Below are positions 5,688 to 24,808 of a DNA stretch of 64,000 bases, one piece after another. A model generated the notes under the pieces. The model saw nothing but the letters and a program-made list of their open reading frames with translations, was not told the origin of the DNA and ran no database searches. Source of the stretch: Desulfosarcina sp. BuS5. Its GTDB lineage: Bacteria > Desulfobacterota > Desulfobacteria > Desulfobacterales > BuS5. Location: the NCBI RefSeq assembly GCF_028752835.1, contig NZ_CP087952.1, positions 2,027,041 through 2,091,040 on the forward strand, in the 5' to 3' direction. The translations under genes and the position numbers were made by a program. Position 1 is the stretch's first letter. The number at the start of each line of letters is the position of its first letter.

Positions 5688-7007
5688 TTATAACGCAGTT
5701 TCAGGATGAAATACAGCAACTTCCTTTAAATCGTCACCCAGATATTCCCGTTCGTTTGGACCGAGTATCCCAAGGGAAAGGCAAATCAAAGTCCATAGAT
5801 GGACAACAGGGTAGTGGCCTCCATAATGTTCGCTAAGTTTGTGAATCTGATCATGACAATTATGACAACCTGCTATACAGTAATCGGCTCCTGTTGCCTT
5901 AATCTGCTCATCTTTAATCTTACCGAAAGCAAGTCGCTGCTCATTAAAACCTGACTGGAGAAAACCGCCGCCGCCGCCACAGCAAAAATTATTTGACCTG
6001 TTTGGAGTCATGTCAATGAAATTTTCTTCTCCAACTATCGATTTTACAACAAAACGCAAATCTTCAGCTACAGGATCTCCATAACTTTTGCGAATAATCT
6101 GGCAAGGATCTTGTACCGTAAATTTAATTTTCAAATCCTTGTTCCAGTCTGAATTTACTTTAAGTTTACCCTCACGTATCCATTTGGCATAATATTGATA
6201 GATGGATACAATTTCAAGATTATGTTTAATATTGAATTTTCTCAGTCCGTCCCGGACTGCAAAGGTAGCGTGACCTCATTCAGTATTAAGATAAACTTTG
6301 CATCCAAGTTCCTGGGCATGATCGGCACTTGTTTTAATAATATGTTTCCATGCATCATCGTCAGCAAGAAACATACAGTAATTTTCTCCGCCCCACCCCT
6401 TGCTGCCGTATGTCCAGTTTGCTCCAGCAAGGTGCAAAATTTTCCAGAGCGGAACCATCTCGTCAGGTTCGGTTACAGGCTCTCTGGAATTCTGGTTTAA
6501 AAAGAATTCTGCTCCTTGTTTATCAACCGGCGCTTCCATATCGGCAAATTCAGGCTGTGCCTCCTTATATTCCTCAAGAACATCTTCAACCACAAATGTA
6601 AAATCTTCAGGAGTTGCTCCCATGGCACTGCAAGAGTCATTTCTCAAGGCCATATCACAAGAACCGAGAATCCCTTTTGGACGTTTTTCCCTGGGCCTGA
6701 GTTGCCTGGCATAATGTACCAGTTGTGGAATATTAATTTCCATGGGGCAGACATAAATGCATCTTTGACATAAGGTACACATCCACGGCCAATTCGATTT
6801 AATAATCTCTTCATCCATTCCCAGCGCAGCCATCCGAAGAAATTTTCTGGGATCCATGTCCTCCAGGCCTGTTGCGGGGCATCCTGAAGAGCATGCCCCG
6901 CATGTAAGACAAAGGTTAAGATTTCCGCCATCAGGGAGGATTTCCTTAACCTTGTCTATAAAATAACTTTTTTCCTTTTTCCCAAGCTTTATAGCTTCCT
7001 TAGCCAT
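5688..7007 (-). CDS. HdrD/DsrK-like heterodisulfide-reductase-type Fe-S oxidoreductase, probable selenoprotein (in-frame TGA = Sec)
   Basis: Read from ATG 7007 (preceded by GGGGG) to 5688 this is one 440-codon frame interrupted only by TGA at 6278-6276 (codon 244). The N-terminus has two [4Fe-4S] motifs, CLTCGACSSGCP and CTLCQRCIYVCP (HdrC-like). The first CCG domain has C-X32 before the TGA, in context NTE-(TGA)-GHATF, matching the CGHA motif of HdrD/DsrK-type proteins with Sec replacing Cys. After the TGA the frame continues with normal family sequence: a second CCG domain FCCGGGGG and CIAGCHNCH. A hairpin suited to a bacterial SECIS lies 15 nt after the TGA. CCG domains bind the noncubane [4Fe-4S] clusters that reduce disulfides. 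It is the last gene of the metV-metF-hdrA operon and is probably the electron-accepting or donating partner of the HdrA-like flavoproteins. Standard gene calling would split it into 6276-7007 and 5688-6134. Confidence 0.88.
6243..6278 (-). promoter_or_regulatory. Sec-encoding TGA with downstream bacterial SECIS-like hairpin
   Basis: On the - strand TGA (6278-6276) is followed by 15-16 nt and then CAGTCC-GGGAC-GGACTG (6259-6243): a perfect 6-bp stem with a 5-nt loop containing G residues. Known bacterial SECIS elements place a small stem-loop with a guanine in the apical loop roughly 16-37 nt after the UGA, bound by SelB. Spacing and loop fit; the fold has not been computed. Confidence 0.75.
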
Positions 7008-7046: not shown

Positions 7047-8702
7047 TTAAGCTAAATTGTTTATAGTTTTTTCCATGTCGCAAACAATAGCAGAAAATCG
7101 ACTCCCTGTATTGGAAGCCAGGGTGGCAAACTGCAGCCGTTCTTTTCCGAAACCGGATTCCTCCAGCATGCGATGAGCATCGTCGACACGCCATTCGGCA
7201 AAAATATTTCCCCGTTCGGATTTACAATTTCCATTATGACAAGTCAAAACAAGGACCCCGTCTGCACCTTCTACAAAAGCGGTCAATATATAGTCCAGAT
7301 CAATTTTTCCGGCACATGGCACTTTTACCATTTTCAGGCCCTCGGGAACCGGCATATTAAATGTTTTTGCCATCACCCCGGCTTCAAAAGCAGAGTTCCG
7401 GCAGCAAAAAGCGACAATTTGGGGAGCTTTCGCATCAGGTTCAATCGATTGTTTAATCTCCTCTTTCAGGTCGGTATCTGTAAAGCCGCCAACCTGGATT
7501 GCATCCATCGGGCATTCACTAGCACAGATACCGCAAGCCTGACAGGCAAGGGGAGATATGACAGCCTTGTTGTCTTCATCCCAATAAATGGCTCCATGCG
7601 GGCAGCAACGGTAACAGGTAATGCAGAATACACATTTGCCGGTGTCGACAATACCTCTTTCTTTCGGTGCCATCCTTGTGCCGTCACCCAGGAGATTTTT
7701 TACTCCAAGAACAACATTGGCGGCATCTGTTATTTCCAAAGGCAGATTTTGCACTTCGCGGCTCGCGCCTATAACAAAAATGCCTTCCCGGTTGGAAGAA
7801 ACAGGAAAACGGTGAACATTATCTTTTTGCATAAGCCCGGCCGCTTCCATATCTATACGCAAAAGTCCGGCCAGTTCGTCATTACTTTGACCTGGGCAGA
7901 TTTCTTCCTCAACGACCAGTAAGTCGGGGGAAAGTTCCATATCCTGCCTTAATACAGGATCGAAAAAAGTGATTTTTTTTCCGTCCTGGCTGATCTCCGG
8001 CATTTGGGGCAGTTTAAAGTATGTGGCCCCATTATCCCTGCTCTCTTTATAGATCCTTTCCAAAGAGTCTGAGGCTACCTTTAAATCACCGGCATAAACA
8101 TAAGCAGTGCAGCCTTCAATCTGTTCAATTGCAAGAATGCTGCGGACAAGTCTCTCCATCACAATCGGATATCCATAATTCCCGAAACCCAGAAGAAAAG
8201 CAACTGTTTTACCTGCCAGCTTTTCCCTGGCGGATTGATCCCCTGCAGCCAGCATCTCTTCAAGGCTGGACTGGGTTATAACATTGTCTGATAGGGAAAG
8301 CTGATATTTATCATTCAAGGGCTTGATGGTAAAACCGGTCGCGATCACGATAGCGCCTGTTTTTTTTCCAATGATCCCGTCTTTATTTTCCAGTTTAAGA
8401 TTAAAATCACCTGGAACACCGTTAACCCCGACTAAATTTGTATCGGTCAGGATTTCAATCCGGCTGTTTGATAATACCTCTTTTTCAAGCTCTTTAAGAC
8501 CGGTAATATCCTGCTCACCTAATCCGGTCAGCAGCTCTTTTTTTTGAATATCAATCCCGGAGTTACTCTCAATCAGGCATACCTTATATCCGCAGGCTGC
8601 AATTCCCGCTGCCGCCTTTAAGCCTGCAGCGCTGCCGCCTACAATCAGAACTTCGGTATTGACGGTTATTTTTTCCATATCATTATTTGTCATATCATTC
8701 AT
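7047..8702 (-). CDS. HdrA/QmoB-like FAD and Fe-S protein with C-terminal MvhD-like domain
   Basis: 551 aa. Order: N-terminal FAD motif VLIVGGSAAGLKAA; mid-region second dinucleotide-type segment; two [4Fe-4S] ferredoxin motifs CVFCITCYRCCP and CQACGICASECP (~370-405); C-terminal MvhD-type domain from ~430 with FCC, VPCAGKID and LTCHNGNC. HdrA plus MvhD fusion is the layout of QmoB and of bifurcating HdrA-type proteins, although QmoB is usually longer (~750 aa). The usual CCxxC of MvhD reads FCCRNS here, so one cluster ligand seems changed. It overlaps the upstream gene by 4 bp (ATGA), implying translational coupling and a stoichiometric complex. Likely role (inference): routes electrons between MetF, the HdrD-like selenoprotein and ferredoxin/NAD. 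Confidence 0.85.
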   Translation of the reverse strand: MNDMTNNDMEKITVNTEVLIVGGSAAGLKAAAGIAACGYKVCLIESNSGIDIQKKELLTGLGEQDITGLKELEKEVLSNSRIEILTDTNLVGVNGVPGDFNLKLENKDGIIGKKTGAIVIATGFTIKPLNDKYQLSLSDNVITQSSLEEMLAAGDQSAREKLAGKTVAFLLGFGNYGYPIVMERLVRSILAIEQIEGCTAYVYAGDLKVASDSLERIYKESRDNGATYFKLPQMPEISQDGKKITFFDPVLRQDMELSPDLLVVEEEICPGQSNDELAGLLRIDMEAAGLMQKDNVHRFPVSSNREGIFVIGASREVQNLPLEITDAANVVLGVKNLLGDGTRMAPKERGIVDTGKCVFCITCYRCCPHGAIYWDEDNKAVISPLACQACGICASECPMDAIQVGGFTDTDLKEEIKQSIEPDAKAPQIVAFCCRNSAFEAGVMAKTFNMPVPEGLKMVKVPCAGKIDLDYILTAFVEGADGVLVLTCHNGNCKSERGNIFAEWRVDDAHRMLEESGFGKERLQFATLASNTGSRFSAIVCDMEKTINNLA

Positions 8703-9877
8703 CCGCTCACCCCCAAATGTTTTAAAACTTCACCCGCAGCCTGGATTGCATGAGCCATGGAAGCCGGTATACTCTTGGGACCTTGCACAGTTCCGGCAAT
8801 AAAAATACCATCTTTTGATGTAGAGGTTCTGCTTAATGTGTTCGTGCATGCAAAAAAACCGTCTATATTAAGATCAATGCCCAGCACTTCCGATAATTTT
8901 TCATTATCGCTGCCCGGCGTTATTCCGACTGACAATGCAACCATATCAAAAACATCCTCGACCGCCGAACCATCCTCATCATTCAGGTACCGCGTCCGCA
9001 GCTTGTCATCCTCCATTGGATAAACATCTACAGGTATGTTCCGGATAAAATTAAATTCCTCTTTGCATTTATCATAAAATAGAGAAGAATTTTTGCCCGC
9101 ATTCTGGATATCCATGTAGAAAATTGTGATATCCGCCTCAGGGTTTCTAAATTTGATGCCACTGGCCATTCTGAGTGCGTAAGGGCAGCAAATCTGTGAG
9201 CACCATAAATTCCCCAGATTTTGATCCCGACTGCCGACACACTGAATAAATGCGATTTTTTGCGGCTCCTTGCCATCAGATGGCCTGACAATAAAACCAT
9301 TTTCTCTTTTGCTTCGCTCAAGGTCGAGACCGGTAACTACATTTTCGAATTTACCATAGCCATAAGTCCCCTTTTGGCCGGCATCAAAAGCTTTGAAACC
9401 ACTGGCCAGGATTATGGCATCCACATCAATATCACCGTCAAAACCTAATTCATTAAATTCAACCGAACCTTCAGGGATATTTGAACAAGCGTTTTTATCA
9501 GTAACCACATAAAGAGGTGAATTGTTTTTTGAGAAGGCCTTGATTAGACCTTTACCATCCTGGTCATCCGGTAAAGCACTTTTTTTAAGGCTGACGGAAT
9601 AGCCGTTGTTTTTAGTAATTTGCTCAATTTCTGTTGCAAGGTGAACTTGAATCCCGGGTTCATTTACCACATTCTGCAGCATATCCTCAGCCGAACAGGC
9701 TCCGCATGTCAGGCATTCATCCGTGGCTTTGCAGCAAAACTGGATTGCATGCCCACCTAAAAAGCATGTCTTTTCAACCAGTACCACATCAATGTTGAAT
9801 TTTGACAGCTCCCAGGCGGCAGTCAAACCGGCAATTCCACCCCCGACGACCAAAACTCGTTTATTCATATTACCCAC
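8699..9877 (-). CDS. HdrA/QmoA-like FAD-dependent oxidoreductase
   Basis: 392 aa. The FAD Rossmann motif VLVVGGGIAGLTAA at the N-terminus is followed by a Cys-rich insertion FCCKATDECLTCGACS (~46-62), which supplies HdrA-type Fe-S ligands, and by GGHA in the QmoA/HdrA context. The segment KIAFIQCVGSRD is typical of HdrA. Length matches QmoA (~400 aa) and lacks the ferredoxin domains of full HdrA. The GTG start at 9877 is chosen because AAAGGAG lies 7 nt upstream; ATG at 9868 would be 16 nt away. Together with the downstream MvhD-containing paralogue it forms a QmoAB-like pair, here tied to metVF and not to aprBA or qmoC. Confidence 0.88.
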   Translation of the reverse strand: MGNMNKRVLVVGGGIAGLTAAWELSKFNIDVVLVEKTCFLGGHAIQFCCKATDECLTCGACSAEDMLQNVVNEPGIQVHLATEIEQITKNNGYSVSLKKSALPDDQDGKGLIKAFSKNNSPLYVVTDKNACSNIPEGSVEFNELGFDGDIDVDAIILASGFKAFDAGQKGTYGYGKFENVVTGLDLERSKRENGFIVRPSDGKEPQKIAFIQCVGSRDQNLGNLWCSQICCPYALRMASGIKFRNPEADITIFYMDIQNAGKNSSLFYDKCKEEFNFIRNIPVDVYPMEDDKLRTRYLNDEDGSAVEDVFDMVALSVGITPGSDNEKLSEVLGIDLNIDGFFACTNTLSRTSTSKDGIFIAGTVQGPKSIPASMAHAIQAAGEVLKHLGVSG

Positions 9878-9935: not shown

Positions 9936-10859
9936 TTATACCTTCGGTCTGGGCAACACCTTTGCCAGCTCAGCAATTTCAGGCACCTTATGTTCCCATT
10001 CAATAGCCATAAGATGAACTCCGGCAACGCCTTTCATCTCTTTGAATTCTTCAATCTGCTCGCAAGCCATTTTTATACCTTCATCGGCCTGTTTTTTCTT
10101 TTCAACGCCCTTGAGACGATTAATAACATTATCAGGTACATCCATCCCAGGGACTTTAGCTTTCATATATCTGGCCATACCAAGACTTTTCATGGGGGTT
10201 ACTCCGGCCAGGATGTAAACTTTTTCGGTAAGTCCCATATCATTGGCGCGCCTGATCCATTCCCGCATTTTGTCCATATTATAAATACATTGAGTCTGAA
10301 CAAAGTCCGCGCCGGCCTTGACTTTTTTTGCCAGGCGATGTACGCGCCATTCAAATGGATCTGCAAAGGGATTAGCGGCGGCACCTATAAAAAGTTTGGG
10401 CGGTGTATCGATATCTGCTCCGCCGAGGAACTTCCCTTCGTCGCGCATTTTTTTAACCATGCCGATAAGCTGCATTGAATCAATATCAAAGACTCCTTTT
10501 GCCTGGGGATGGTCTCCGAATTGCTGATGATCACCTGACAAACAGAGTATGTTCCGGATTCCGTGGGCATATGCGCCCAGGATATCGGCTTGCATGGCCA
10601 AACGGTTGCGGTCACGGCATACCATTTGGTAGTTAGGCTCCAGTCCTTCCTGCATAACAAACATGGAAGCCGCCCAACTGGACATTCGTACCATGGCAGT
10701 CTGGTTGTCAGTGATATTAACAGAATCGACAAGCCCCTTTAAAAATCCGGCTTTTTTCTTAACAGCCTCAACATTAGCTCCTCGAGGAGGTCCGACTTCA
10801 CCAGTAAAAGCAAAATGTCCTGCTTCTAAAACTTTTTCAAGATTGCTTTCTGCTTTCAT
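9936..10859 (-). CDS. metF: Methylenetetrahydrofolate reductase, catalytic subunit
   Basis: 307 aa. It has the TIM-barrel features of MetF: FTGEVGPPRGAN near the N-terminus (conserved Glu), SVNITDNQ, LCLSGDH, and ADFVQTQ with the FAD/folate-binding barrel strands. It interconverts methylene- and methyl-tetrahydrofolate in the Wood-Ljungdahl methyl branch. It lies between metV and the HdrA-like genes, so the physiological electron partner is probably the Hdr-like complex and not free NADH (inference from context and from known MetFV-Hdr complexes of acetogens). Confidence 0.95.
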   Translation of the reverse strand: MKAESNLEKVLEAGHFAFTGEVGPPRGANVEAVKKKAGFLKGLVDSVNITDNQTAMVRMSSWAASMFVMQEGLEPNYQMVCRDRNRLAMQADILGAYAHGIRNILCLSGDHQQFGDHPQAKGVFDIDSMQLIGMVKKMRDEGKFLGGADIDTPPKLFIGAAANPFADPFEWRVHRLAKKVKAGADFVQTQCIYNMDKMREWIRRANDMGLTEKVYILAGVTPMKSLGMARYMKAKVPGMDVPDNVINRLKGVEKKKQADEGIKMACEQIEEFKEMKGVAGVHLMAIEWEHKVPEIAELAKVLPRPKV

Positions 10860-10931: not shown

Positions 10932-11603
10932 TTAAGATTGATAACGTTTTGCATAAGCCGGTTGAATTACTGTCCGGGGTGTCTGATTACGCCAGTCAAT
11001 AGGTTCACAAATTTCAAGAATATTCTCAAGCCGTCCCTGTTTCTCCAGTCTTTCATAAATCTGAAACCAGGCGCATGGCTGATCCTGGCTGATTTCGCAG
11101 TTACCCTGGTTTGTTCCTCCGCAAGGACCGTTGAGAAGACTTTTGGCACACATGGTTACAGGGCAGATCCCCCCGGTCATTCCAAGTACGCATGTGCCGC
11201 ATCCCCGGCATCGTTCCTCATACCAGCCCACATCCCTGTTAACTCCAATAAAAGTTGTATCAACAGCCGGAAAAACCGGTAAATCCGGAAACCTTTCCGC
11301 CAGAAACTGGATGCCGGCACCACAGGCCATGGATAAGAGTGCGTCATATCCGCCAACCAGGTCGTCCAGTTCAGCCAGAAACTCCATGTCGCATTGCCGT
11401 TCAACAGTAATCCCGCCAAACTCAATTTGATTATTATCAACTTTAGCGGCAAGTTTAAGTTCGGAATTTAAAATTCCCACCTCCTTTTCACCGCCGGCAA
11501 GGCAGACAGCGACGCAAGTTCCACAACCCACTGTAAGAACTTTTTTGTAGCCCCCCAGCAACGCCCTGATTTCATCAAAGGGCTTCCTCTGTGCAACAAT
11601 CAT
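10932..11603 (-). CDS. metV: Methylenetetrahydrofolate reductase accessory subunit MetV (zinc/Fe-S, MTHFR C-terminal family)
   Basis: A 223-aa Cys-rich protein. Motifs include VGCGTCVAVCLAGG near the N-terminus, CRGCGTCVLGMTGGICP in the middle, and LLNGPCGGTNQGNCEI followed by PCAWFQIYERL, which is diagnostic of the MTHFR C-terminal/MetV family. ATG at 11603 is preferred because AGGAGG lies 5 nt upstream; the longer GTG reading from 11624 would run through that site. MetV binds MetF and supplies Fe-S centres for electron delivery. It is the first gene of the five-gene operon. Confidence 0.92.
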   Translation of the reverse strand: MIVAQRKPFDEIRALLGGYKKVLTVGCGTCVAVCLAGGEKEVGILNSELKLAAKVDNNQIEFGGITVERQCDMEFLAELDDLVGGYDALLSMACGAGIQFLAERFPDLPVFPAVDTTFIGVNRDVGWYEERCRGCGTCVLGMTGGICPVTMCAKSLLNGPCGGTNQGNCEISQDQPCAWFQIYERLEKQGRLENILEICEPIDWRNQTPRTVIQPAYAKRYQS

Positions 11604-11943
11604 GAATCCTCCTGTTTTAATCACTCAATATTTGTATCATATATAAATACCAACAATAATTTAAAAAAAATATTCTGGCGCAATATTTGGAAAATATTGA
11701 TTTACAAAAATTGCTATATACCCTTAAATTTTAACCTTAATATTATGTCATACATCCTAAAAATGTCAAGGAAATTAATTTTCCCGAATATTGGATATAT
11801 GGCAACTGTTTTAATCTCGTTCCCACGCTGCCGCATGGGAACGTATATGGATGGGGAAAGATGATGATGCAAAAGCACTGGAGATGTTCAACTGCGAGCA
11901 ATGGTTTGGGGGTGTAAGGGATGGAGGTTCTGTTAAAGAAGCT
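11604..11943. other. Intergenic region upstream of the metV operon
   Basis: 340 bp, very AT-rich near 11640-11780, which would hold the leftward promoter of the metV operon. No convincing -35/-10 pair could be fixed. A REP-like palindrome lies at 11818-11843. Short + strand frames here have no ribosome site or recognisable protein and overlap the zinc-ribbon gene antisense. Confidence 0.6.
11818..11843. repeat. REP-like palindrome (CGTTCCCACGC...GGGAACG)
   Basis: CGTTCCCA and TGGGAACG arms around a short GC loop. The same GTTCCCACGC core recurs at 59620-59645 and 59659-59684 and, in weaker form, at 53371-53397, so this is a dispersed palindromic family. Confidence 0.7.
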
Positions 11944-20717: not shown

Positions 20718-21602
20718 TAATCATATAAAGGTCATAGCGAAATTCGATAGGTTTTTGTTTAACTCATGCTGTGGGGACTCTGTCCCCCAGACCCCCTGGG
20801 ATTTTTCGCTTATGGTCTTCCGAATGGGGATAAAAAAAGGAAGGACACGGCAATGCCCTCCTCGTGCCAAGATAAATCCGAATCGTTGGGATAAGACACA
20901 AGGTCTTTGAAACTCGATATTGTTACCAAGTGGGTGCTCGGGAAACGGTTTGTTTCCTTCATCTCTGCAGGGCTTGCTCTGGCATTGATGTTAAGATAGT
21001 CCCACCTGACTAAAGACTAACCAGCAGGTCAGTAGCGAAGTCCACAGGTAAACCCGGTAACGGGAGTCTGGAGCTGGACGGAGCAAGATTGCAGGCTCTG
21101 TATTGAGCCCCGAAAAATGTATGGTTGTGGTCATTGTGATAATCCTGCTTGCAGGAAAAAGCCGACGCTTTGGAGACAGCGGAAGGCAGCAGTCCTGAAT
21201 ATGCTAAGGCAAGTATTCAGGACACCACCGGGGTCTTAGACCAGGGCATGTACTCAAAGGGGTAGCTCGGGAACTTGGGAGACCCGGATGTTTCCTTGGG
21301 TAAAAAGAACGGTAACAGGAAATCCAGCGCAAGCGAAATCCCGGCGTTGCATAGGAATGTCCCGCCTTGCAACGAGTCTGCCATTGGCAGAAACACAAAC
21401 ATTAAAAGATGGGCGATACAAGGTATCAGGGGAGGATAGCGAAGAGCGAACGAACCTGAGATAAACATTCGGAAGTCTTAGCAGATCATAGTACCGATGA
21501 TTAAGAATTGAACTATCTTGATCGGAAAGGTGGGGAAGTGATGCCCAAGCGACCCACTGCAGGGAAGGTGAAGCAGGGTATAACGTTTTTTTGGCAGGAA
21601 TT

Positions 21603-22976
21603 ATGGGAGATACACAGATGTCACAAACCATATCAACAAAAAGCCGAGAAATTGCAAGAACGGTCGCTTGCAATTCCAGACCGATAGAATGGGGACAACC
21701 ACCGGTGTTAACAGGTGGGTCATCCCTTATCAAAATCGAGCTGCTTGCTCAAAGTAATCCTGAACTGGTATTTACATCAGTAGTCCATCGGATAGACTTT
21801 GATTTACTGAAACAATCCTTTCGTAAAATTCGGAAAAGCAAATCTGCAGGAGTGGACAAGGTTACGGCAAAGGAGTATGCCGAAAATCTTGATCAAAACC
21901 TCTATAATCTGTATGAACGACTGCGGAGAGGACAGTACGTTGCGTCTCCTGTAAAGCGTATCTGGATAGACAAGGAAGGAGGGAAAAAGCGTCCAATTGG
22001 CATACCTGTACTTGAGGATAAAATTGTCCAGAAAGCAGCAGCAGCCATATTGAATGTCATATTTGACAGGAATTTTTACAATTTTTCCCATGCATTCAGA
22101 AAAGGTCGGAGCCAACACATGGCAATCAAAGATTTACGTGAGCAATGCTTGAAGCAGAATATCAGCTGGATAGTAAGCGCAGATATTACAGGACTATTTG
22201 ACAATATTAATCACGAGTTACTTAAAGACATGATACGTCGGAGAGTAAGTGACGGCGGAATGATTCGCCTGATAGGGAAGTGGTTGAATGCAGGCGTAAT
22301 GGAGGAAGGCAACCTGACGTACTCTGAAACGGGCACTCCACAGGGAGGAGTAATTTCCCCTGTGCTCAGTAATATCTTTCTTCATTATGTTTTAGATGAC
22401 TGGTACGTGAAAGAAGTGATCCCCCGGATGAAAGGGAGATGCTCCATCATACGCTGGGCGGATGATTTCATCCTCGGGTTCGAGTATGAAAAAGACGCAT
22501 TGCGTGTCATGGATGTATTACCCAGGCGGTTCGAACAGTTCGAGCTGTCACTTCACCCGGAAAAGACAAAACTGATTCGATTTTCCAAACGCATTAGCGG
22601 AAAGGGAAACGGGACGTTTGATTTTTTAGGGTTTACATTTTACTGGTCAAAATCATTAAAAGGGTACATGGTAATAAAGAAAAAGACGGCAAGAAAGCGT
22701 TCAAGCCGTTTTATGAAGAGAATATGGATATGGTGCAAGGATAACCGTCATAAGCCAATGGCCGAGCAGTATGAGATTCTTTGCAGTAAACTGCGAGGTT
22801 TTTACCAGTACTTTGGAGTAATAAGTAACTACAAAGTGCTGGAAGTTGTGTTTGAATATACTGAGAAAGCATGGCGTCGATGGTTAAGCCGAAGAAGTCA
22901 CAAGGGCGAAGTAATGTTCGAGGACTTGCGCACAACATACCCACTGCCATTACCCAGAATAGTCCATAATATTTGA
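21603..22976 (+). CDS. ltrA: Group II intron reverse transcriptase/maturase
   Basis: ~457 aa. RT domain: KSKSAGVDKVT, KRPIGIPVLEDKIVQ, DITGLFDNI, the TGTPQGGVISPVLSN block, and the catalytic motif as RWADDF (Trp in place of the common Tyr). The maturase X-like region follows (LRGFYQYFGVISNYK). No HNH endonuclease domain is visible, so mobility would rely on nicked or replicating DNA. ATG at 21603 has AGGA just upstream; ATG at 21618 with GGGAG is an alternative. Confidence 0.92.
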   Translation: MGDTQMSQTISTKSREIARTVACNSRPIEWGQPPVLTGGSSLIKIELLAQSNPELVFTSVVHRIDFDLLKQSFRKIRKSKSAGVDKVTAKEYAENLDQNLYNLYERLRRGQYVASPVKRIWIDKEGGKKRPIGIPVLEDKIVQKAAAAILNVIFDRNFYNFSHAFRKGRSQHMAIKDLREQCLKQNISWIVSADITGLFDNINHELLKDMIRRRVSDGGMIRLIGKWLNAGVMEEGNLTYSETGTPQGGVISPVLSNIFLHYVLDDWYVKEVIPRMKGRCSIIRWADDFILGFEYEKDALRVMDVLPRRFEQFELSLHPEKTKLIRFSKRISGKGNGTFDFLGFTFYWSKSLKGYMVIKKKTARKRSSRFMKRIWIWCKDNRHKPMAEQYEILCSKLRGFYQYFGVISNYKVLEVVFEYTEKAWRRWLSRRSHKGEVMFEDLRTTYPLPLPRIVHNI

Positions 22977-23057
22977 TGCCGTAAGGGCTGCAAAGTTATA
23001 CGCCAAACGGGGTGTCGCCTGTTTGGTTGATAATCCGGTAAAAAGGATTTGAACCGA

Positions 23058-23125
23058 GGAACCGTATGAGGGAAATCTTCACGTACGGGTCTGTAGGGGG
23101 GGCGTCGGGTAACCGATGCTCCTAC
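23058..23125 (+). ncRNA. Group II intron domains V and VI
   Basis: ACCGTATGAGGGAAATCTTC followed by ACGTACGGGT forms the domain V hairpin (CCGTA/TACGG, bulge, GAGG-GAAA-TCTTC tetraloop stem). Next is a GGCGTCGGGTAACCGATGC hairpin consistent with domain VI, ending in CTAC. The base triad preceding CCGTATG reads AAC, not the usual AGC or CGC. Confidence 0.7.
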
Positions 23126-23126
23126 C

Positions 23127-23371
23127 TGGAACATTCGTATAAACGCCTTGCAGCTTTCCTGTTTGAAACCTTCAAAGAAGACGTGACAGCAGAAGTAATA
23201 CCTATAAGAAGTTATGCCACATCTGTACGCCGCAAGATAGTCGATATAGGAGCTAAAATTGTAAAAAAAAGTCATATGATCACTTTAAAGCTATCTCAAT
23301 CTGTTATGCAAGCCATTAAGTTTGATAAACTATGGGCCAATTGCCAGAATCCATCTCCCATCCTGATTTAA
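23127..23371 (+). pseudogene. C-terminal remnant of an IS1380-type transposase
   Basis: The frame through 23127-23371 encodes a ~80-residue tail, including YKRLAAFLFETFKEDV and SYATSVRRKIVDIGAKIV, which resembles the end of IS1380/DDE group 1 transposases. The preceding part of the gene is absent; the group II intron abuts the fragment directly. The family assignment is from recall of that C-terminal pattern and is moderate. Confidence 0.6.
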
Positions 23372-23500: not shown

Positions 23501-24808
23501 CAGTAGTGTCCGGTTAGGTTTTTGCATGTTATATGGGATAAAAAAATTAGAAAAATGTTCATTTTTTACTTGACAAACCAAATAAAAATTTTTTATCGTT
23601 TTGTTATAAAATATAATTATAACAAGGAGTTAAGACAAAAATGGACATATTCAATATCCCAAAAAAGAATTTTAATCCCCAATCTCATGCTCGATTTCTC
23701 AAACCTTTGCAAAAGATTTTTCCTGACACGCCACAGCTTAAATCCCGAGGTCACAGGCCATTGAAAATGACTTTTGAAGATCAGCTTCACGCACTGATAT
23801 TTTTCCATCTACAAGAACATGAATCAGCTCGTGATCTTATTCAACACCTTAAAGAAGACGATTTTGCCAAAGAATGTGTCGCTCCAGATGGAGGGATCAG
23901 TCGTAGCAGTTTTTCCGAAATTATCAATTCTCGAGGGCTTGAACAGCTTGAATATGTTTTTCAAGCTCTTTGCAGCCAGGCACAAAATGCTTTACCATCA
24001 AATTATTCAGATCTCGGTGAACTCGTTTCCATTGATGGATCTTTAATTGATGCAGTTCTGTCCATGTACTGGGCTGATTACAGAAAAGGCGCTAAAAAAG
24101 CAAAAGGCCATTTCGGCTTTGATGTCAATCGCAAGATTCCTATAAAAATTCATCTGACAAATGGAAATGGCGCTGAACGCCCCTTTGTCAGGTCTATCCT
24201 TACAAAAGGCCAAACAGGAATCATGGATCGGGGGTATCAATCACATAAGGATTTTGATCTTCTTCAGGATGAAAAAAAACATTTTGTTTGCCGCATCAAA
24301 GCGAAAACAACAAGAACTATTATCAAAGAGCAGCCTGTTGATCCCGACAGCTATATTTTTTATGATGCTGTGGTTCTTCTTGGCACTCCTGGGGTAAACC
24401 AGACCAGAAAGCCGGTTCGACTGGTTGGTTATAAAATTGCCGGTGTCAAATATTTTGTGGCAACTGATCGTTATGATCTTACAGCCGAGCAGGTTGCAAC
24501 CGTTTATAAGCTTAGATGGGATATCGAAACTTTTTTCAAATGGTGGAAGAAACATTTAAAAGTGTACCACTTGATTGCTCACAGTAGATATGGCCTGATG
24601 GTTCAAATCCTTGCGGGGTTAATAACCTACCTGCTTATGGCCATATACTGCCATGAACAGTTTAATGAACCTGTATTAATAAAGAGGATTCGTCAGCTTA
24701 GAAATACCATCCAGAACGAATTACGTACTGACGAAAAAAACGTATGGTCTAATAATCTTATTATCAAAGAGCAAATGCTATATGCAAAAACTTAACCGGA
24801 CACTACTG
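23501..24808 (+). mobile_element. IS4-family insertion sequence, copy 1
   Basis: 1308 bp bounded by inverted ends beginning CAGTAGTGTCCGGTTA (27 bp with one mismatch). A promoter-like TTGACA and a GTTATAA...TTATAAC palindrome precede the transposase. No direct repeat is seen between the 9-bp flanks (AATTTTTTC left, ATTTCATCT right), so this copy is old or its neighbourhood has been rearranged. Confidence 0.92.
23641..24795 (+). CDS. IS4-family DDE transposase (copy 1)
   Basis: 384 aa. Catalytic residues: Asp132 in SIDGSL, Asp196 in MDRGYQ, Glu296 in the Y-(2)-R-(3)-E-(6)-K signature YKLRWDIETFFKWWK, which defines the IS4 group. AAGGAGTT precedes the ATG. It differs from the other two window copies at a handful of positions (for example VLIKR against VSIKR). 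It appears intact. Confidence 0.95.
   Translation: MDIFNIPKKNFNPQSHARFLKPLQKIFPDTPQLKSRGHRPLKMTFEDQLHALIFFHLQEHESARDLIQHLKEDDFAKECVAPDGGISRSSFSEIINSRGLEQLEYVFQALCSQAQNALPSNYSDLGELVSIDGSLIDAVLSMYWADYRKGAKKAKGHFGFDVNRKIPIKIHLTNGNGAERPFVRSILTKGQTGIMDRGYQSHKDFDLLQDEKKHFVCRIKAKTTRTIIKEQPVDPDSYIFYDAVVLLGTPGVNQTRKPVRLVGYKIAGVKYFVATDRYDLTAEQVATVYKLRWDIETFFKWWKKHLKVYHLIAHSRYGLMVQILAGLITYLLMAIYCHEQFNEPVLIKRIRQLRNTIQNELRTDEKNVWSNNLIIKEQMLYAKT

Follow-up and report, generated by a model that had tools for sequence, protein, structure and literature searches.

A predicted selenocysteine codon within an HdrD-like gene of Desulfosarcina sp. BuS5

Two open reading frames (6276-7007 and 5688-6134) lie in one frame on the reverse strand of the window, i.e., of the whole 64,000-nt stretch of Desulfosarcina sp. 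BuS5 DNA analysed here. Is the TGA codon between them a stop or is it read as selenocysteine (Sec), such that a single HdrD-like protein results? The original prediction had argued for the latter. Both reading frames are present as it described, and the stretch between them is open apart from this codon, i.e., TGA codon 244 is the only stop of the 439-residue frame. Its central claim, an Hdr-type subunit with an in-frame UGA for Sec, agrees with the SECIS-type hairpin, the Cys homologues and the complete sel machinery that we found, and those of its refutation criteria that we examined spoke for it. Table 1 lists the features of the locus.

Table 1. Coordinates of the HdrD-like gene, its recoding elements and its upstream neighbours in the window
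Feature	Position	Strand	Details
Predicted hdrD-like selenoprotein gene, HdrC-type ferredoxin domain and HdrB-type CCG region fused	5688..7007	-	439 residues, Sec244
UGA codon 244, predicted Sec reading, motif N-T-E-U-G-H	6276..6278	-	TGA 133, TGC 21, TGT 3 of 157
SECIS-type hairpin, 7 bp, GGA loop	6243..6259	-	covaries in UGA genes, absent in Cys genes
HdrA-like flavoprotein fused to MvhD/FlpD domain	7047..8702	-	FlpD 1.1e-33; HdrA2 7.7e-71, under curated cut-off
HdrA-like flavoprotein	8699..9877	-	HdrA2 1.7e-73, under curated cut-off
MetF, methylenetetrahydrofolate reductase	9936..10859	-	MTHFR PF02219 2.7e-38
MetV-like partner of MetF	10932..11624	-	PF12225 (MTHFR C-terminal) 1.2e-36

Codon 244 in the window and among homologues

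Codon 244 stands in the context NTE-U-GHA. For the read-through protein, Pfam reports a 4Fe-4S dicluster domain (Fer4, residues 30-91) and one CCG domain (residues 297-388). We scanned the window for TGA codons that bridge open stretches of about 100 codons on the 5' and 60 on the 3' side and obtained 7 sites, of which, judged by eye, 6278 alone falls within a recognisable gene family. Among the matches listed, dozens of full-length relatives carry a single TGA.

The read-through protein was searched against 96 genomes (own genome included), all of which yield matches. The listed matches of at least 74% identity that span codon 244 all show an internal TGA, and two of them also carry a TAG, namely at codon 229 (L153) and at codon 433 near the end (L154). 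The former is located 15 codons ahead of the conserved TGA in a homologue of 78% identity from a one-contig genome; it may reflect an error, decay or a second recoding.

Within the loci fetched first, 119 matches cross codon 244 (112 TGA, 4 TGC, 2 TGT, 1 CCC), where the lone CCC belongs to a remote paralogue of 24% identity (L003). For 60 further stretches, chosen from the listed matches to take in Cys copies and more distant ones, we counted 38 TGA, 20 TGC and 2 TGT codons, a ratio of TGA to Cys that is a biased estimate because of this choice. The original prediction had named the codon 244 column of homologues as a check; within the resulting non-redundant set (E 1e-20 or better, at least 200 aligned columns, identical rows removed, own copy and own paralogue included, the CCC of L003 thereby excluded), all 157 sequences carry a Cys or Sec codon there (counts in Table 1). 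TGA copies are spread over many families of the order and include the cultured species Desulfonema magnum (L063), Desulfobacter vibrioformis (L088), Desulfatitalea alkaliphila (L089) and Desulfobacter latus (L116).

Alignments were hand-picked (A1 with 48 rows, A2 with 30 rows, A3 with 42 of 105 distinct UGA rows). E243, U/C244, G245 and H246 are unchanged in 30/30 aligned sequences, even in those of 35% identity. A tree of 84 rows (61 U, 23 C), which excludes rows with more than 150 gaps and samples 21 UGA rows from those of at least 78% identity, requires three U/C changes (counted without direction), all three forced by well-supported branches.

The hairpin downstream of the UGA

The stem that had been proposed downstream of the TGA is real, with 7 bp instead of 6, a GGA loop and a distance of 16 nt between UGA and stem (CAGUCCG-GGA-CGGACUG). 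It is part of the minimum free energy structure of a 43-nt stretch (-13.9 kcal/mol, z -2.1), and 7/200 shuffles fold as well as this stretch.

We assessed the conservation of pairing in a set of 42 UGA sequences that had been selected by hand from 105 distinct ones so as to be diverse. Standard pairs occupy 98.0% of the stem pair cells, and 23 cells show changes on both sides. The pairing score, the covariation score and the count of cells changed on both sides lie beyond all 500 shuffles; two of the five measures are within the shuffle range (pairs with a double change, 79/500; further pair types, 320/500). Sliding the partner by 1-3 columns lets the pairing drop to 11-44%. One stem pair is changed from G-C to U-A in 15 sequences and to U-G in one more, another from G-C to A-U in 6 sequences. 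Among the 105 distinct UGA sequences, the six outer pairs are complete in 96, and five of them are formed in the remaining 9 (wobble counted).

In the same columns, the 22 distinct Cys sequences are paired at 48.1%, which is equal to shuffles, and the own Cys paralogue does not form the hairpin (folding z -0.4). Ten distant UGA relatives (35-40% identity) show a shorter and displaced hairpin; folded alone, L168 (z -1.0) and L184 (z +0.9) are no better than shuffles.

Synonymous constraint was computed as normalised conservation in ten-codon windows along the whole gene. For 123 UGA sequences, the peak is found at codons 249-258 (0.70 vs. a mean of 0.11, rank 1/425), while the same codons rank 355/371 in 23 Cys sequences. 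In UGA copies, and in these alone, synonymous constraint within the gene is strongest at the hairpin codons. The hairpin is under selection and beyond chance.

Given that 133/157 sequences, spread over many families within the order, keep the TGA, that the window copy is free of frameshifts and that the hairpin is under selection, a decaying pseudogene with a nonsense mutation at codon 244 is extremely improbable; the two reading frames yielded by the standard code are the sole point that speaks for decay. If the UGA were a true stop, the part at 5688-6134 could be translated alone, since its reading frame offers a possible TTG start. We consider such a pair of products very unlikely: a start 48 codons past the UGA would lose the conserved residues in between, and the Cys homologues are single chains. 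The same two arguments, together with codon conservation and hairpin covariation, led us to reject a split gene.

Judged from its sequence, this is an intact gene for a selenoprotein and not a pseudogene, because of the TGA/Cys conservation, the hairpin covariation and constraint confined to UGA copies, and the sel machinery described below. A gene split by the standard code would thereby be recovered as one selenoprotein.

Decoding machinery and a second UGA-type tRNA

A search for selA, selB, selC and selD, suggested by the original prediction, retrieves all four in the own genome. SelA scores 617 bits, SelB 385 bits (above cut-off) and SelD 382 bits, where selD itself shows one in-frame TGA; the canonical tRNA-Sec (G73) reaches 75.6 bits and is above cut-off. 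Among the 96 genomes, 79 have a tRNA-Sec match at E 1e-7 and 17 have none, and at least 13 of these 17 hold UGA copies of the hdrD-like gene. A laxer search of the 13 yields only 42-48 bits (G025 just above the cut-off) compared to 72-81 bits for canonical tRNA-Sec. Since SelB is found above cut-off in 9/13, assembly gaps are likely, i.e., missing contigs are the likely explanation for the absent tRNA-Sec. Within the mechanism we propose, SelB and tRNA-Sec would read UGA 244 as Sec, guided by the hairpin that follows at a distance of 16 nt, as suggested by conservation, covariation and gene content.

The own genome also encodes a Cys paralogue (73% identical) with NTECGHA at the place of residue 244. 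At C1:1780104-1780191 we find a second tRNA that has an 8-bp acceptor stem and U73 and starts with G; a sense anticodon is ruled out, since its anticodon is UCA. It adjoins a second SelB-like gene above the family cut-off, with the Cys paralogue 4.5 kb away. Along L124:6349-12192 (own C1, about 1774348-1780191), this tRNA and the second SelB are thus found near the Cys paralogue and an HdrL gene. Two 461-codon reading frames of L124 (2858-4243 and 8639-10024) with identical, reverse-transcriptase-like translation, of group II intron type by appearance, are located where HdrL and, at its end, the second SelB gene are interrupted; the frames of these two genes terminate at TGA within an inserted element. 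At 20996-23131 and near 24243, 28478 and 33550, the window shows Rfam matches to group II introns as well as three occurrences of one coding stretch, a sign of a repeated element.

A 2017 paper by Mukai and others reportedly deals with selC*. In a review, selC* tRNA-Cys is described together with SelB* for Desulfobacterales, in a form where A1 pairs with U72 (A1:U72) and a separate CysRS* occurs (PMC7609411). The second tRNA of the own genome, with the second SelB beside it, resembles this system, but it begins with G, unlike the A1:U72 form. A CysRS search of the own genome gives a single match above cut-off; five others are weak, at 20-41 bits.

Inspection of 20 stretches that surround weaker tRNA-Sec-type matches showed several of these matches to be tRNA-Ser, -Leu or -Ile. 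A tRNA with UCA and U73 is present in nine genomes (own, G051, G016, G084, G026, G019, G092, G020, G013), and a tenth (G008) has one with GCA and U73; G072 and G024 are left outside this count. A second-type SelB match lies nearby in 10/10 (two cut by the contig end). The Cys paralogue and HdrL are part of the same cluster in 3/10 (own, G051 with L133, G016 with L140), and the HdrD, HdrL and MvhD reading frames near the second tRNA of L133 and L140 show no in-frame TGA as a candidate target of this tRNA (HdrL of L133 being cut by the stretch end). The Cys paralogue of G019 is 11 kb away from the second-type tRNA, G008 has a remote HdrD-like gene between tRNA and SelB, and a molybdopterin oxidoreductase is close to the second-type tRNA in G026 and G020. 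In L225:8001-9900, a tRNA-Cys (GCA, U73) of tRNA-Sec-like shape is followed by an HdrD-like gene of 29% identity and a second-type SelB. In L229:1-3734 and L233:3379-6003, molybdopterin oxidoreductase genes stand beside second-type tRNA and SelB; our guess is formate dehydrogenase.

Among genomes of at least 95% completeness, 12 (G007, G017, G038, G045, G048, G053, G061, G063, G067, G071, G075, G094) have a UGA copy and, among the matches listed, exactly one tRNA-Sec-type match of at least 74 bits, counted at E 1e-7 with strict filters that lose some weak matches. Since these genomes hold UGA copies along with a single such match, the second tRNA seems dispensable for reading codon 244.

This count bears on whether UGA 244 is read as Cys, always or under selenium scarcity, by the second tRNA and the second SelB. 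The features of this tRNA (UCA, 8-bp acceptor stem, U73) next to an above-cut-off second SelB in the own genome speak for such a reading, and selC* tRNA-Cys with SelB* has been reviewed for Desulfobacterales (PMC7609411). We nevertheless rate it as quite unlikely given the single tRNA-Sec-type match of the 12 genomes, the full canonical Sec set of the own genome, its second tRNA starting with G in place of A1:U72, and its one above-cut-off and five weak CysRS matches. A dual reading, where UGA 244 is translated as Sec via SelB and tRNA-Sec but as Cys, via the second SelB and the UCA/U73 tRNA, when selenium is short, is unlikely. Sec and Cys would both be tolerated in this case because residue 244 would be a redox-active chalcogen opposite the noncubane cluster, standing in for the second HdrB cluster. 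The second tRNA/SelB cluster is possibly a selenium-shortage module, a role that it would share with the nearby Cys paralogue and its HdrL partner if the dual reading were true. A Cys paralogue and a second UGA-type tRNA within one genome offer a natural comparison of Sec and Cys at one codon.

Gene neighbourhood, cluster ligands and known relatives

The original prediction placed the Hdr-type gene next to MetF, and we confirm a MetV-MetF-HdrA-HdrA/MvhD neighbourhood, where all four genes are upstream of the hdrD-like gene in the same direction (Table 1). The PF12225 gene is the one we take to be MetV. We investigated the 60 loci with at least 5 kb upstream out of 123 non-redundant UGA sequences (more than 50% identity). 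Here, 20/60 loci have MetF on the same strand at a distance of up to 5.5 kb (7 upstream, 13 downstream), and upstream HdrA-type as well as upstream MvhD-type genes are found in 22/60 each. The window's own upstream order is present in 5/80 loci (L070, L080, L086, L094, L121), many of the 80 being too short to show it. Acetogens possess a MetFV-HdrABC-MvhD complex. By likeness and gene order, an Hdr-type complex joined to methylenetetrahydrofolate reductase is suggested. Within such a MetV-MetF-HdrA-HdrA/MvhD complex, the product would serve as the subunit for electron transfer, and the complex might couple methyl-tetrahydrofolate chemistry to a disulfide, a thiol or a similar acceptor.

Alignment predicts a soluble fusion of HdrC and HdrB parts. 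It would hold two cubane [4Fe-4S] sites, with 8 invariant Cys, along with a single noncubane [4Fe-4S] site. The putative ligands of the latter are C302, C342, C343, C381 and C384, which match noncubane ligands and are invariant in 30/30 aligned sequences, probably along with His246. The TGA had been read as replacing the second cysteine in a CCG domain (C-X32-U). As a complete domain, this did not hold up: the N-terminal CCG half is degenerate, with C211 (Gly in 9/30 aligned sequences) and U244, i.e., the two complete CCG sites (ten Cys) of HdrB/HdrD are absent from this protein, for which Pfam reports one CCG domain.

The respective clusters can be related to Mycobacterium smegmatis EtfD (9ojn). 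EtfD binds a linear [3Fe-4S] cluster (D1) via C581 and C584 with C503 and C538, and a noncubane cluster (D2) via H583, C637, C672, C673, C709 and C712 (PMC13083937). In a profile alignment, C302, C342, C343, C381, C384 and H246 align with C637, C672, C673, C709, C712 and H583, i.e., with the full D2 set, and U244-G245-H246-A247 align with C581-P582-H583-C584. The four-Cys D1 set is incomplete here, since C581 is replaced by Sec and C584 by Ala247, while C503 and C538 are beyond the printed alignment. The earlier wording of Sec as a ligand of the noncubane cluster therefore has to be revised: Sec244 aligns with C581, a ligand of the other cluster. An AlphaFold model (48 sequences; pLDDT 85.4, pTM 0.87) has EtfD 9ojn as its best structural match (Z 23.0, 3.3 A, 375 residues), followed by the Helicobacter protein 3kwl (Z 20.5) and HdrB chains (Z 18.1-18.8; 5odc_B 18.1).

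By inference, Sec244 corresponds to C78 of HdrB and would stand at the place of a second-cluster ligand, within a half-domain that lacks most other ligands. Since the N-terminal half has lost most ligands, the second cluster of HdrB/EtfD is presumably absent and replaced by Sec244. The selenol would then most likely be placed beside the remaining noncubane cluster, next to the predicted ligand His246, and probably be redox-active there. For Hdr, cleavage of the disulfide is ascribed to two noncubane clusters (PMC13083937, with reference to Wagner 2017); by analogy, one of them would be replaced by a selenol here. The same paper states that the EtfD histidine aligned with His246 makes the noncubane cluster non-catalytic (PMC13083937), which is why the cluster of the HdrD-like protein may be an electron relay only. 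This remark slightly lowers our confidence in the overall explanation, i.e., Sec at UGA 244, one noncubane cluster, an Hdr-MetF complex and a selenol beside the cluster, which we still consider highly probable as a whole.

On sequence grounds, the hdrD-like gene belongs to the known UGH Fe-S oxidoreductase (GlpC) selenoproteins, a family that has been described since 2006 and is not new. The Sec-containing Fe-S oxidoreductase (GlpC) family goes back to Zhang 2006 (PMC1794560); a 2026 review assigns it the motif UGH, lists it as PTHR43551 and counts it among the selenoproteins largely without known function (PMC13188914). The gene shows UGA followed by Gly-His (E-[U/C]-G-H in 30/30 rows), a SECIS hairpin directly downstream, Cys homologues at the Sec column (TGC or TGT in 24/157) and Sec-decoding genes in its genome. 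For this old family, our results provide a structural hypothesis, namely a Sec two residues from a predicted noncubane-ligating histidine; within the open-licence literature, we found no paper that ties the UGH Sec to a noncubane site.

No NCBIfam model is above its own cut-off for the read-through protein. The HdrB cut-off is missed (30.4 bits vs. 345), and so are, by far, the equivalog cut-offs of DsrK (117/400 bits), HmcF (184/750) and TmcB (172/735). These proteins of sulfate reducers are nevertheless related to it along most of the chain (117-184 bits). Methanogen HdrB (5odc_B, Z 18.1) shares the CCG fold and the C-terminal noncubane ligand set, but has two complete CCG sites, whereas the N-terminal site is degenerate here and retains Sec244. 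EtfD (9ojn), the top structural match, aligns in its five noncubane Cys and the His; unlike the HdrD-like protein, it has a linear [3Fe-4S] site, of which C581 became Sec and C584 Ala here, and a membrane domain. With the GlpC/UGH family, the gene shares U-G-H, the UGA with SECIS-type hairpin, Cys homologues, the bacterial group and hdrA and frhD/mvhD-type neighbours. The operon described for that family is glpC-hdrA-frhD-frhG-frhA, whereas the present gene is accompanied by MetV, MetF and two genes of HdrA type. Finally, the genome paper of Desulfobacterium autotrophicum reports Sec in HdrD4 (PMC2702500). By this published description, HdrD4 is alike in being a soluble HdrC-HdrB fusion with Sec from a related sulfate reducer.
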